Shown here piece by piece: positions 23,794 through 39,717 of a stretch of 64,000 nt of DNA. The notes below the pieces were generated by a model, which was not told the DNA's origin, did no database searches, and worked only from the letters and a program-made list of their open reading frames with translations. The stretch is from assembly GCF_947331465.1 (NCBI RefSeq), contig NZ_CAMZOK010000003.1, forward strand, positions 682,001 to 746,000. Direction: 5' to 3'. The position numbers and the translations under genes were made by a program. Positions within the stretch are counted from its first letter, which is position 1. Every line of letters begins with the position of its first letter. This DNA is from Shimia sp. Alg240-R146 (lineage in GTDB: Bacteria > Pseudomonadota > Alphaproteobacteria > Rhodobacterales > Rhodobacteraceae).

Positions 23794-24582
23794 TCAAAGG
23801 TCAAACGTCGCAAACACCGGCGCGTGGTCACTGGGTTTTTCCCAGCCCCGCGCCTCGCGCAAAACACGGCTTGAATGCCCCGCATTGGAGATATCGCCCG
23901 TCGCCCAAACGTGATCCAGCCGCCGGCCTTTGTCGGCCGCATCCCAGTCACGGGCGCGATAGCTCCACCAGCTATAAAGCTGCCCTTCCGGCACATCCTG
24001 CCGCGTGATATCAACCCAACCGCCCGCGTCCTGCGTCTCGGCCAGCGCTTCGACCTCCACCGGCGTATGGCTGACGATTTTCAGCAGCTTCTTGTGGTCC
24101 CACACATCGTCTTCGCGCGGCGCGATGTTCAAATCCCCGACAAGAACCGCCTTCTGCATCTTCTCACGGCGAAAATAGTCTCGCATATCGCTGAGATAAT
24201 CGAGCTTCTGGCCAAATTTCTCGTTCTTCTCGCGGTCCGGCACATCGCCTCCCGCTGGCACATAAAAATTGTGGACCGTCACACCGTTCTCCAGCTTGCC
24301 GGCGATGTGGCGGGCGTGGCCCAAGTCGGCAAAATCTTCGGCGCCGGCTTCAACCATCGGGATTTTCGACAGGATCGCGACACCGTTGTATCCCTTCTGC
24401 CCGCGCGCCACCATGTGCGTGTAGCCAAGCGCAGCAAAGCCTTCGGTCGGGATGTTTTCAACCGGACTTTTGCACTCCTGCAAACACAACACATCCGGTG
24501 CTTCTTCTTGCAGCAACTTAAGCACAATCGGCTCGCGCAAGCGCACCGAATTGATGTTCCAGGTGGCAAGGCTAAAGGACAT
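23794..24582 (-). CDS. xth: Exodeoxyribonuclease III
   Basis: A 262-residue AP endonuclease/3'-exonuclease for base excision repair. Motifs run in the family order: ATWNINSVRLR at the N-terminus, LCLQECK with the metal-binding Glu, VLVGDLNIAP, GRRLDHVWAT and SDHAPVFATF at the C-terminus. The ATG at 24582 begins the fold directly. Two small-RNA-like units lie upstream on the same strand, so the xth leader may include or follow them. Confidence 0.95.
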   Translation of the reverse strand: MSFSLATWNINSVRLREPIVLKLLQEEAPDVLCLQECKSPVENIPTEGFAALGYTHMVARGQKGYNGVAILSKIPMVEAGAEDFADLGHARHIAGKLENGVTVHNFYVPAGGDVPDREKNEKFGQKLDYLSDMRDYFRREKMQKAVLVGDLNIAPREDDVWDHKKLLKIVSHTPVEVEALAETQDAGGWVDITRQDVPEGQLYSWWSYRARDWDAADKGRRLDHVWATGDISNAGHSSRVLREARGWEKPSDHAPVFATFDL

Positions 24583-24674: not shown

Positions 24675-24757
24675 AAAAAAAGGGCCCGAGCAAAAGCCCG
24701 GGCCAGTCCAACAGGGAGGTATATGCCAATACCCGGGCATATGCGGGATCTCTTCAG
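24675..24757 (-). ncRNA. Small RNA unit 1 (tandem copy nearer xth)
   Basis: On the minus strand the unit runs AGAGAUCCCGC, hairpin 1 (AUAUGCC/GGCAUAU, 24742-24736 with 24727-24721), a linker ACCUCCCUGUUGGACUG (24720-24704), then an intrinsic terminator (GGCCCGGGC, loop UUUU, GCUCGGGCC at 24704-24683, C, seven U at 24681-24675). The linker is identical to that in unit 2, while the stems differ by paired changes, which is good evidence for a functional RNA. CCUCCC can pair with Shine-Dalgarno sequences. It resembles in concept the CcsR/'cuckoo' RNAs of Rhodobacter and the alpha-r14 family, which carry CCUCCUCCC loops. The 5' end is approximate and no promoter could be assigned. Confidence 0.75.
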
Positions 24758-24849
24758 CGACCACCCTAAAGGTGCAGCCGAAATGTTTCTTTGATCGAGG
24801 TCAAACAATTTGGCAGGTTTTTGCGGCGCGGCGCAAAAGCTGCATCCCC

Positions 24850-24932
24850 AAAAAAAGGACCCGAGCCGAAGCCCGGGTCAGTCCAACAGGGAGGTCATGT
24901 CATAACCCGGACATGGCGGGATTCTCTCATGA
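24850..24932 (-). ncRNA. Small RNA unit 2 (tandem copy nearer cenR)
   Basis: Same architecture as unit 1: AGAGAAUCCCGCC, hairpin 1 (CAUGUC/GACAUG, 24915-24910 with 24901-24896), linker ACCUCCCUGUUGGACUG (24895-24879) and terminator (GACCCGGGC, loop UUCG, GCUCGGGUC at 24879-24858, C, seven U at 24856-24850). Both hairpin-1 loops begin CGGGU. A CCTATAT element at 24944-24938 is a possible -10 box, with no convincing -35. It lies about 75 nt after the cenR stop, so processing from the cenR mRNA is an alternative to an own promoter. Confidence 0.75.
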
Positions 24933-25003: not shown

Positions 25004-25690
25004 TTAGGCGACCAGACGATACCCGCCACTTTCCGTCACCAAAAGCCGCGCGTTGCTGGGGTCGGGCTCGATCTTCTGGCGCAGGCGATAGATGTGCGTC
25101 TCAAGCGTGTGCGTCGTAACACCCGCGTTGTAGCCCCAGACCTCATGCAGCAGCACATCCCGCGCCACCACGCCGTCCGTGGACCGATACAGGTACTTGA
25201 GGATGTTGGTCTCTTTCTCGGTCAGGCGGATCTTGCGCTCATCTTCAGTGATCAGCATCTTCATCGCTGGCTTGAACGTATACGGGCCAAGCACAAACAC
25301 CGCGTCCTCAGATTGCTCATGCTGGCGCAACTGCGCCCGAATGCGGGCCAAAAGCACCGGGAATTTGAACGGTTTGGTCACGTAATCGTTGGCCCCGCTA
25401 TCAAGGCCCAAAATCGTGTCGGCGTCGCTGTCATGCCCTGTCAGCATCAGGATCGGGCTTTTCACCCCTTGTTTGCGCATCAGGCGGCACAATTCGCGCC
25501 CGTCTGTGTCAGGCAGACCCACATCAAGAATGATGATGTCATACAGGCCTTCTTTGACGCGACTCATCGCTTCGCTGCCGTTGCCGGCCTCAAAGACATC
25601 AAAATCTTCGGTCATCACAAGTTGCTCTGACAGAGCCTCGCGCAGATCTTCATCATCATCCACAAGCAGGATTTTCTTAAGCTGTGCCAT
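25004..25690 (-). CDS. cenR: OmpR-family response regulator, CenR-like
   Basis: A 228-residue two-domain regulator. The receiver has the acidic pocket DDDED (11-15), phospho-acceptor Asp56 in IILDVGLP, the Thr in MLTGHD and Lys in VTKPFKF. The C-terminal winged helix ends THTLETHIYRLRQKIEPD and GGYRLVA. The sequence around ILGLDSGANDYVTKPFKF and LRQHEQSED closely resembles Caulobacter/Rhodobacter CenR, an essential cell-envelope regulator working with the kinase CenK. No kinase gene is adjacent. The RNA units follow its stop, and ribA is divergent 172 nt upstream. Confidence 0.85.
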   Translation of the reverse strand: MAQLKKILLVDDDEDLREALSEQLVMTEDFDVFEAGNGSEAMSRVKEGLYDIIILDVGLPDTDGRELCRLMRKQGVKSPILMLTGHDSDADTILGLDSGANDYVTKPFKFPVLLARIRAQLRQHEQSEDAVFVLGPYTFKPAMKMLITEDERKIRLTEKETNILKYLYRSTDGVVARDVLLHEVWGYNAGVTTHTLETHIYRLRQKIEPDPSNARLLVTESGGYRLVA

Positions 25691-27448: not shown

Positions 27449-27841
27449 TCACTCAGGGTACTTGCGCGCCGCCTTGGCCTTGCCAACCACCTTGCCGCCC
27501 GCCCGCGCTGTCGCGGTCCACTCATAGGTGTGCATGCCGTTCGGCGGACAGGGGCTTTTGTACTTGAACGTGCCCGCTGCGACGCGACCGTCCTGCGTGA
27601 CCTTCAGCTTCTTGCTGCCACCGTGGTTATAGTTTGGCACGTCCAGATCCTTAATCTTGAACTGAACGGTGGTTGTCCCTGCTGGCAGACCCGTCACGAC
27701 AAACTCAGGATTGCCAACGGTGTTTGGGCGCCCGGTGGTACAGGACTTAATCCCACCCCAATTGGCAAAAGAAATCTTGAATTCCGCGGCTACGGGGGCT
27801 GCCCACAGCGCCACGATTATGGCTCCGATAAAAAGACGCAT
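27449..27841 (-). CDS. Secreted PEBP-like protein, paralogue A
   Basis: A 130-residue protein with a signal peptide (MRLFIGAIIVALWAAPVAA). The mature part has GLPAGTTTVQFKIKDLDVP and YKSPCPPNGMHTYEWTATA, which mirror the PEBP/YbhB pattern LPxGTxxL...DDPDAP and GPCPPxGxHRYxF. The ligand-pocket DPDAP is changed to DLDVP and the usual FVHW is absent, so ligand binding may be lost or altered. Two Cys are kept in both paralogues (IKSCTTG and SPCPP). The next gene upstream on this strand is paralogue B. Function unknown. Confidence 0.7.
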   Translation of the reverse strand: MRLFIGAIIVALWAAPVAAEFKISFANWGGIKSCTTGRPNTVGNPEFVVTGLPAGTTTVQFKIKDLDVPNYNHGGSKKLKVTQDGRVAAGTFKYKSPCPPNGMHTYEWTATARAGGKVVGKAKAARKYPE

Positions 27842-27985
27842 TCCTAAAAACTCCACTAGAGGCGAAACACTCAGAGTGTGACCGCCTTTTTTGTAAACCA
27901 ATGACAATTTCGGCGAGAACTCAGCATTTCCCTCCAAGGCATCACCACCTCACACAACAATACGCGTGAAGCATCCCGCGCATTC

Positions 27986-28381
27986 TTACTCCGGATATTT
28001 GCGCCTTGCCTTCGCATTGCCGCTGATCCGGTTTCCCGCCCGCGCCGTGGCCTTCCACTCATAGGTATTGGTGCCGCTCACCGGACATGGACCACGATAG
28101 TTAAACGTGCCTGCAGGGAAGCGCCCGTCAGCCGGAACCGGCAATCGTTTGCTCGCGCCGCGATTGGCAGCCGGCACGTTCACATTCTTGAAATAGAACT
28201 GCACCGTCGTCGTTCCAGCCGGAATATCCGTCAAAAAGAACTCGGGATTGGGAACCGACTTCGGATTACCGTTGTTGCAAAATGGGATATCTCCCCAACC
28301 GTCAAACCGCAGGGAAAACTCTGCTGACGCCATTCCCGCGCTTACACAAAGGGACAAAACAGCAAAAAGAAAACGCATCAT
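27986..28381 (-). CDS. Secreted PEBP-like protein, paralogue B
   Basis: A 131-residue protein with a signal peptide ending GMASA and a mature start EFSLRFDGWGDIPFCNNG. It matches paralogue A over its whole length (PAGTTTVQF, AGTFNYRGPCP, TYEWKATARAG, ending ARRKYPE). The GPCPVSGTNTYEW segment again resembles the PEBP signature, and DPDAP is replaced by NVNVP. AAGGAG lies 4-7 nt before the two possible ATG codons. The 144-nt gap to paralogue A has no gene. They look like a local duplication of a periplasmic protein of unknown role. Confidence 0.7.
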   Translation of the reverse strand: MMRFLFAVLSLCVSAGMASAEFSLRFDGWGDIPFCNNGNPKSVPNPEFFLTDIPAGTTTVQFYFKNVNVPAANRGASKRLPVPADGRFPAGTFNYRGPCPVSGTNTYEWKATARAGNRISGNAKARRKYPE

Positions 28382-39024: not shown

Positions 39025-39123
39025 CGGTCAAGACACCCAACAAGACCGAACGTCACCGATCGCAACCAACGCTTGTGCAACCCTCTCGCCCTTGGCACTC
39101 TGTCGCCAACAGGGAGGATCACT

Positions 39124-39717
39124 ATGTATGACGTCATCGGAAGTTCCACCAGCCGCGCCTTTCGCGTGATGTGGATGCTTGAGGAACTCGGCCAGCCTTA
39201 CACCTACATCCCAGAGCAGCCGCAAAGCGACATGGTCCGCGAACTCAACCCCTCCGGCAAAATTCCCGTTCTGCGTGACGGCGACGCGGTCATCACCGAC
39301 AGCACCGCAATCCTCACCTACCTCGCGGACAAACACGGCGCGCTGACCTATCCCGCAGGCACGCTCGAGCGCGCTCATCAGGACAGCCTCACGCTAATGA
39401 TTCTGGACGAGATCGAAAGCCCGCTCTGGACCGCCAGCCGCCACAGCTTCGTTCTGCCCAAAGACAAGCGTGTGCCCGAGGTCAAAGACAGCCTGAAATG
39501 GGAATACAGCCGCAACATGAAAACCGTCATGTCCCGCAAGCGCGGCGCCTACATGATGGGCGACATGTTCACCCTGCCCGACATCATCCTCACCCAATGT
39601 GCCACGTGGGCCAAAGTCGCGGGCTTCCCGACCGACAATGAGGATCTGCTTGCTTATATTCAGGAAACCCGTGCACGTCCGGCGTTTCGAACCTTGCTTG
39701 AGAAAATCAAAAAGTAA
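39124..39717 (+). CDS. Glutathione S-transferase family protein
   Basis: A 197-residue protein with an N-terminal thioredoxin-like domain (MYDVIGSSTSRAFRVMWMLEELGQPY, then NPSGKIPVLRDGDAVITDSTAIL) and an all-helical C-terminal domain (about 85-197, GDMFTLPDIILTQCATWA). Ser8/Ser9 in GSSTSR are candidates for the glutathione-activating residue. AGGGAGG is upstream of ATG at 39124. It is separated from holA by about 100 nt and convergent with the flavoprotein gene. Substrate unknown. Confidence 0.88.
   Translation: MYDVIGSSTSRAFRVMWMLEELGQPYTYIPEQPQSDMVRELNPSGKIPVLRDGDAVITDSTAILTYLADKHGALTYPAGTLERAHQDSLTLMILDEIESPLWTASRHSFVLPKDKRVPEVKDSLKWEYSRNMKTVMSRKRGAYMMGDMFTLPDIILTQCATWAKVAGFPTDNEDLLAYIQETRARPAFRTLLEKIKK

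Follow-up and report, generated by a model that had tools for sequence, protein, structure and literature searches.

Between an OmpR-type response regulator gene and xth, a 64,000-nucleotide stretch of the Shimia sp. Alg240-R146 genome (the whole stretch of DNA that was analysed, hereafter the window) carries two tandem copies of the small RNA SorX. Only the copy distal to the regulator is preceded by an exact FNR-type box, which lies near the class-II promoter distance. The two copies share a near-invariant linker, and the first hairpin of the family covaries. The SorX family itself is ordinary; the points of moderate interest are the proposed split of promoters between the copies and the recurrence of the FNR-type box. 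We consider it fairly probable (about 0.6) that the locus is a tandem SorX duplicate in which copy A arises alongside the regulator mRNA or from a promoter independent of FNR, and FnrL drives copy B at low oxygen, both RNAs repressing mRNAs through an anti-Shine-Dalgarno linker; transcription, oxygen control and the targets of both copies are what we infer here from sequence. The features of the locus, in window coordinates, are as follows.

25004..25690, minus strand: OmpR-type response regulator gene (Pfam Response_reg and Trans_reg_C), orthologue of the SorX host gene
about 24850..24930, minus strand: SorX copy A, proximal to the regulator (RF02784, 67.0 bits at 24853-24922)
24791..24804, minus strand: FNR-type box TTGACCTCGATCAA upstream of copy B, exact TTGA-N6-TCAA
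24763..24770, minus strand: -10-like element TTTAGGGT of copy B, its TTTA starting 21 nt after the box
about 24675..24756, minus strand: SorX copy B, distal (RF02784, 71.1 bits at 24678-24749)
23794..24582, minus strand: xth, exodeoxyribonuclease III, the next gene downstream (TIGR00195 and TIGR00633 above their cut-offs)

The initial annotation had placed two small RNA units here from the letters alone, and the sequence agrees with it: two minus-strand units of ~75–80 nt lie between the regulator and xth, each consisting of AUCCC, a hairpin, the linker ACCUCCCUGUUGGACUG, a G+C-rich terminator and a seven-T run. In copy A, AUCCC is at 24922, the hairpin at 24915-24896 and the linker at 24895-24879, and the 7-T terminator ends at 24850; the corresponding positions in copy B are 24749, 24742-24721, 24720-24704 and 24675, while its start at ~24756 is a prediction from the geometry of the FNR-type box. 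The regulator stop codon is 81 nt from the copy A AUCCC, and the linker of copy A is 175 nt from that of copy B. The finer points of the earlier description also held, since the 17-nt linker ACCTCCCTGTTGGACTG is the same in both copies, hairpin 1 is re-paired from CATGTC/GACATG in copy A to ATATGCC/GGCATAT in copy B, and the second terminator pair is A-T in copy A and G-C in copy B. Its protein shares 86% identity with that of the gene immediately upstream of SorX in genome G051, which is taken from the position of its SorX to be R. sphaeroides or a very close relative, and among the 25 NCBIfam matches listed no equivalog for the window regulator exceeded its cut-off. The name cenR for the window regulator is that of the initial annotation; RSP_0847, the R. 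sphaeroides host gene, also bears this name. Elsewhere on the minus strand, two adjacent genes (27449-27937 and 27986-28381) encode similar small, secreted-looking proteins, the first with a weak match to PF01161 (phosphatidylethanolamine-binding protein) and the second with no match in Pfam or NCBIfam.

Both window units are SorX, a known family and not a new one. Their scores exceed the gathering score of the Rfam covariance model RF02784 (46.6 bits) by 20–24 bits, with E-values in the 64-kb window of 2.1e-15 for copy B and 3.3e-14 for copy A, far above chance. The main claim of the initial annotation, that the units may form a distinct family, falls because SorX is already a known family; the drifted stem sequences and the rarity of tandem copies speak for a separate family, but the RF02784 match of both copies and their position at the SorX locus rule it out, and we give it next to no probability. 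The accompanying description of paralogous small RNAs with strong terminators and a near-invariant linker resembling an anti-Shine-Dalgarno sequence was borne out. Against the SorY model (RF02651, threshold 111) the copies score 44.9 and 35.9 bits and do not reach the threshold. The 15-base core of the linker has a third exact copy in the genome, on contig C2 at 777677-777691, within a SorY-like RNA that scores 64.7 bits, below the SorY cut-off of 111. This RNA (1501-1588 of locus L010, minus strand; G000:C2:777648-777735) has its linker in common with SorX. Rfam keeps SorX and SorY separate and shows no clan for either; the common seed suggests that the two may share targets or origin.

SorX is widespread around the window's own lineage. 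Of 198 genera in the family, 188 had a match to RF02784, 157 of them above cut-off; every one of the 25 genomes of the genus had a match too. At the class level, 58 of 190 genomes matched at E <= 0.001, and only three of the 190, all of the window's own family, passed the cut-off. The neighbourhood of the regulator was compared in 146 of the 198 genera, those with a listed regulator match and enough contig room, a set in which genera with a distant CenR are under-represented because it is limited to listed matches. Units were detected through the linker core with up to two mismatches and a TTTT after the linker. At most 1.5 kb from the regulator, a unit was present in 126 of the 146 genera (117 single, 9 double, 20 none), this limit omitting farther units such as SorX of G088, ~2 kb off. 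The conservation behind the same regulator that had been anticipated is therefore seen across the family (126/146), and the expected arrays of one to three copies do exist but are uncommon: nine of the 146 loci have two copies, and L113 has three. Among the 20 loci without a unit, three (L193, L214 and L250) lack a single base of the linker, L276 was rejected by the T-run filter although its linker is perfect, and L198 and L260 have more divergent CCTCCC stretches.

Far from varying freely in related genomes, the linker retains each of its 12 positions CTCCCTGTTGGA in at least 133 of 135 units, a count favoured by the fact that the units were located through the linker core with at most two mismatches. 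Hfq-bound small RNAs end in a run of T. A terminal run of at least six T is present in 129 of the 135 units, four T being required for detection. Because the genera are related, all such counts of units are not independent. The compensatory stem changes proposed from the two window copies recur in the family. In a set of 49 rows, hand-picked from 75 printed references (131 of 135 units being foldable) with shifted-register rows omitted, which favours pairing, 89.5% of hairpin 1 cells are paired and both sides are changed in 80 cells versus 15.6 in shuffles. The covariation score of these 49 rows is 0.656 and reaches at most 0.157 when the partner is slid by 1–3 columns; on one of five measures, the number of pairs changed on both sides (8 versus 6.8), 102 of 500 shuffles did as well. 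In all 135 units, unpicked, a stem of at least 6 bp is formed in 121, versus 26.7 expected from base shuffles, and 82 different hairpin 1 stems occur. Just below the SorX cut-off (41.5–44.9 bits) lie seven loci from other families of the class, L343-L349; by eye, six of the seven have a GACGUNAAA/G-type stem side followed by CCUCCCUG and a terminator, and these loci perhaps represent a wider group of linker small RNAs in Alphaproteobacteria.

The exact palindrome TTGA-N6-TCAA occurs only twice in the 64-kb window, one occurrence being the box 42 nt before the AUCCC of copy B. Copy A has no exact FNR-type box; its best site, TTGGCGCCGATAAA, mismatches at two of eight positions, and sites with two mismatches are in no excess (9 among 104 real units versus 9.8 in shuffles). 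Across the family, an exact box lies 30–100 nt before 42 of 135 units, at 62–81 nt in 35 and at 36–40 nt in 7. No other of the 1792 spaced palindromes compared is as frequent. Of the three that come next, two are this box read with different half-sites, and the most frequent palindrome unrelated to it reaches 6 units versus 42. When the 104 units with at least 70 nt of room were considered, 35 had an exact box and 12 more had one with a single mismatch, the expectations from dinucleotide shuffles being 0.14 and 0.88. An overlapping earlier collection (30 + 80 loci and the window) had the box in 35 of 98 units. A box within one mismatch is absent from 81 of the 135 units, counted over two distance ranges, and 25 of these 81 lie 9–55 nt from the stop codon, counted to CTCCC. 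On the tree of 126 loci the presence of the box changes at least 22 times, so that it was often gained or lost.

In most boxed units the box stands near class-II distance from the RNA. A TTTA element follows 21–24 nt after the box, its four positions being kept in 22 (T), 27 (T), 30 (T) and 27 (A) of 35 boxed units, and in 21 of 33 boxed units a spacing of 35–37 nt separates the box from the motif at the start of the mature RNA, which places this motif 0–2 nt from where transcription would begin if the box were centred at -41.5. Nine of the remaining boxed units, the window included, have this motif at 40–42 nt, and three have it elsewhere; in the window, a box centred at -41.5 would put the start of copy B near 24756, 7 nt before AUCCC. 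Short forms with the box 35–36 nt before CTCCC were seen in L118 (at 3472), L115 (at 3398), L113 (at 3038) and the second unit of L272, and with a class-II start the linker would stand at the extreme 5' end of these RNAs. In the literature searched, outside of which the primary SorX and SorY papers lay, we recognised no description of tandem SorX copies or of a conserved FNR box before SorX.

Where a tandem locus has an exact box, it stands at a distal copy. Two SorX copies are present in 3 of the 25 genomes of the genus, with an exact box at the distal copy in 3/3 and at the proximal copy in 0/3, and the other two tandem genomes have these same 14 bases as their copy B box; 16 of the 22 single-copy genomes have an exact box. 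Among nine two-copy loci at the genus level, including the window, the distal copy is boxed in four and the proximal copy in none, five having no exact box, and in the multi-copy loci L113, L115 and L118 a distal copy is boxed in all three and the first copy in none; these tandem counts are small and come from related genomes. The three tandem genomes cluster with genome G207 (SH-aLRT 96) in a genus tree whose outgroup rows are not cleanly outside. Behind its regulator (locus L144), G207, which is closely related to the window's species, has a copy-A-like unit alone, and the sequence past its terminator matches that past the copy B terminator in the window. It looks as though a deletion from one terminator to the other had removed copy B, which makes G207 a natural strain lacking the boxed copy. 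The history of the tandem in the genus would be accounted for by a single duplication and a single loss. A decayed box before copy A is not claimed as proof of a co-duplicated promoter, because the regions upstream of copies A and B show no significant likeness: in the three tandem genomes, 44, 155 and 263 of 500 shuffles scored as high.

SorX of R. sphaeroides, formerly RSs2461, co-immunoprecipitates with Hfq, as stated in the available part of the report (PMC5036791). According to the portions available of three further papers, it is a stress-induced 75-nt RNA derived from the 3'UTR of ompR-1 (RSP_0847), with RNase E acting in the last step, and it represses translation of the polyamine transporter gene potA and counters oxidative stress (PMC8625941, PMC6238624, PMC9438474). 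The published excerpts further describe an RpoHI/II promoter from which it is transcribed along with the regulator, and they present the signal at the pre-SorX 5' end only as a processing product. SorX of G051 is located at 2598225, one base off the published RNase E site at 2,598,224. In this genome a one-mismatch box, TTGCGTGAGATCAA, spans the regulator stop codon and TATAAA follows 23–28 nt later; the start that the box predicts does not agree exactly with the published end of the precursor, from which it lies 14 nt downstream.

These data bear on an alternative that we consider rather unlikely, in which both copies are pieces of the regulator 3'UTR cut by RNase E, the box is unrelated or serves xth, and the duplicate only raises the dose. 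The RNase E route of R. sphaeroides SorX and the account of the pre-SorX 5' end solely as a processing product, both as given in those excerpts, argue for it, as do the many units that lie too near the stop codon for a promoter, such as the 25 of 81 boxless ones at 9–55 nt. Against it, the terminator of copy A separates the regulator from copy B, and the -10-like TTTA recurs at a fixed spacing from the box. The distances of the box point the same way: in the 20 boxed loci where xth could be seen, the distance from box to RNA is well kept (sd 2.3 nt), whereas that to xth is loose (sd 404 nt; 14 of 20 at 151–282 nt and six farther), which disfavours a box serving xth.

The genome encodes FnrL (NF045989, 449.7 bits, cut-off 300), and two such boxes lie within ~3 kb around the fnrL gene (L341 at 915 and 2749). 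In R. sphaeroides, the part available of a ChIP-seq study reports FnrL binding in what is regarded as the promoter region of RSs2461, leaves the effect of FnrL on this RNA unestablished and names E. coli FnrS as a parallel (PMC4263372). The passages at hand from a study of Dinoroseobacter shibae place FnrL sites 41.5 bp upstream of starts and describe FNR and Dnr sites as indistinguishable by sequence (PMC5398030). The last point would favour a copy B promoter whose box is used by another Crp/Fnr-type factor, for example a Dnr/NnrR-type nitric oxide regulator, so that the signal would not be oxygen itself. We regard this as improbable: FnrL is encoded in the genome, published data from R. sphaeroides show it bound near SorX, and PF00325 has a single match in the genome, though this model misses some Crp/Fnr proteins. 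An FnrL promoter for copy B is proposed from the exact box, its spacing, the 3/3 distal boxes, the presence of FnrL and the published ChIP-seq site.

According to the FnrL-based reading, copy A would be cotranscribed with the regulator and released by cleavage, or would come from a promoter without an FNR box, while copy B would have a separate FnrL-activated promoter, would be made at low oxygen and would start slightly upstream of AUCCC. In both RNAs the identical anti-Shine-Dalgarno linker would lie exposed between the two hairpins and, with the help of Hfq, would pair with the ribosome-binding sites of mRNAs and so repress them. In this way the signals that make SorX would have been split by the duplication, with the seed retained. 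Several observations weaken the promoter part of this proposal, namely the 81 of 135 boxless units, the 22 changes on the tree and the five of nine boxless tandem loci, a predicted window start 7 nt upstream of AUCCC instead of on it, and, in R. sphaeroides, the published RpoHI/II route and the 14-nt offset of the start predicted in G051 from the precursor end.

The SorX linker, placed between two hairpins, is complementary to a strong Shine-Dalgarno sequence. The pattern AACAGGGAGG-N3-11-ATG has four matches in the genome and its reversed control none; two of the four are the sRNA genes read backwards and two stand before open frames. The pattern CCAACAGGGAGG-N4-9-ATG has matches in 94 of 198 genomes, its reversed control having three matches altogether, and on visual inspection many of them look like SorX- or SorY-type genes in reverse orientation. 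Among the pattern matches in the own genome and the 198 genomes, no conserved SorX target was seen by eye, which weakens the repression part of the proposal. Duplexes of the linker with the starts of potA-like genes, taken as candidates for the published potA, were no clear improvement on shuffles (z values of -1.5 to +1.3). On the plus strand of the window, a GST-like frame (39106-39717, ATG at 39124, Pfam GST_N_3) carries CCAACAGGGAGG at 39106-39117, 18 bases before its ATG, as a perfect 12-nt complement of the linker over the ribosome-binding site; this gene is a candidate SorX target only.

A broader reading, which we hold tentatively and rate at somewhat below even odds, is that SorX has a dual input in much of the Rhodobacteraceae. 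The seed RNA would be cut from the regulator mRNA under stress or made from an FnrL class-II promoter whose start coincides, or nearly so, with the 5' end left by processing; certain tandem loci, the window included, would have divided the inputs between the copies, with copy B playing the part of FnrS. In some loci with a short form, where the box precedes CTCCC by 35–40 nt, the seed would be the first part of the RNA. Should the FnrL promoter prove functional, a small RNA known as a by-product of mRNA processing is also an oxygen-responsive gene in many genera and, if the reading is true of the tandem pair, duplication splits the inputs of a small RNA with its seed frozen. The boxed copy appears to have a low-oxygen switch of its own, shared by many related species, and one RNA may thus serve two signals. 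The FnrL promoter would also offer a possible reason for the published FnrL ChIP-seq site at SorX, the effect of which is left open in the accessible part of that report (PMC4263372).

Compared with known systems, the window units resemble SorX (RF02784) in architecture, linker, terminator and place behind an OmpR-type regulator, and differ in that two tandem copies are present and that an exact box precedes the AUCCC of copy B by 42 nt, whereas the box of G051 has one mismatch and lies farther upstream. They share the linker ACCUCCCUGUUGGACU and a similar terminator with SorY (RF02651; formerly RSs1543), but SorY has another 5' part, the window copies score far below its cut-off of 111, and, in the part of the literature available, SorY has its own promoter in R. 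sphaeroides. CcsR and mmgR carry C-rich anti-Shine-Dalgarno stretches. The match to the mmgR/suhB model (RF00519) is weak, at 27.5 and 19.9 bits for the two copies, under the cut-off of 41. CcsR1-4, described in the available text as four homologous 3'UTR-derived small RNAs in one cluster behind ccaF1, are similar by description as clustered homologous 3'UTR-derived RNAs and differ in having ccaF1 as their host. No FnrS match was among the Rfam matches obtained for the window copies, and the accessible part of the R. sphaeroides study likewise describes small RNAs without sequence resemblance to FnrS (PMC4263372). On the proposed reading, copy B would nevertheless be like FnrS of E. coli, a short small RNA made by FNR at low oxygen.
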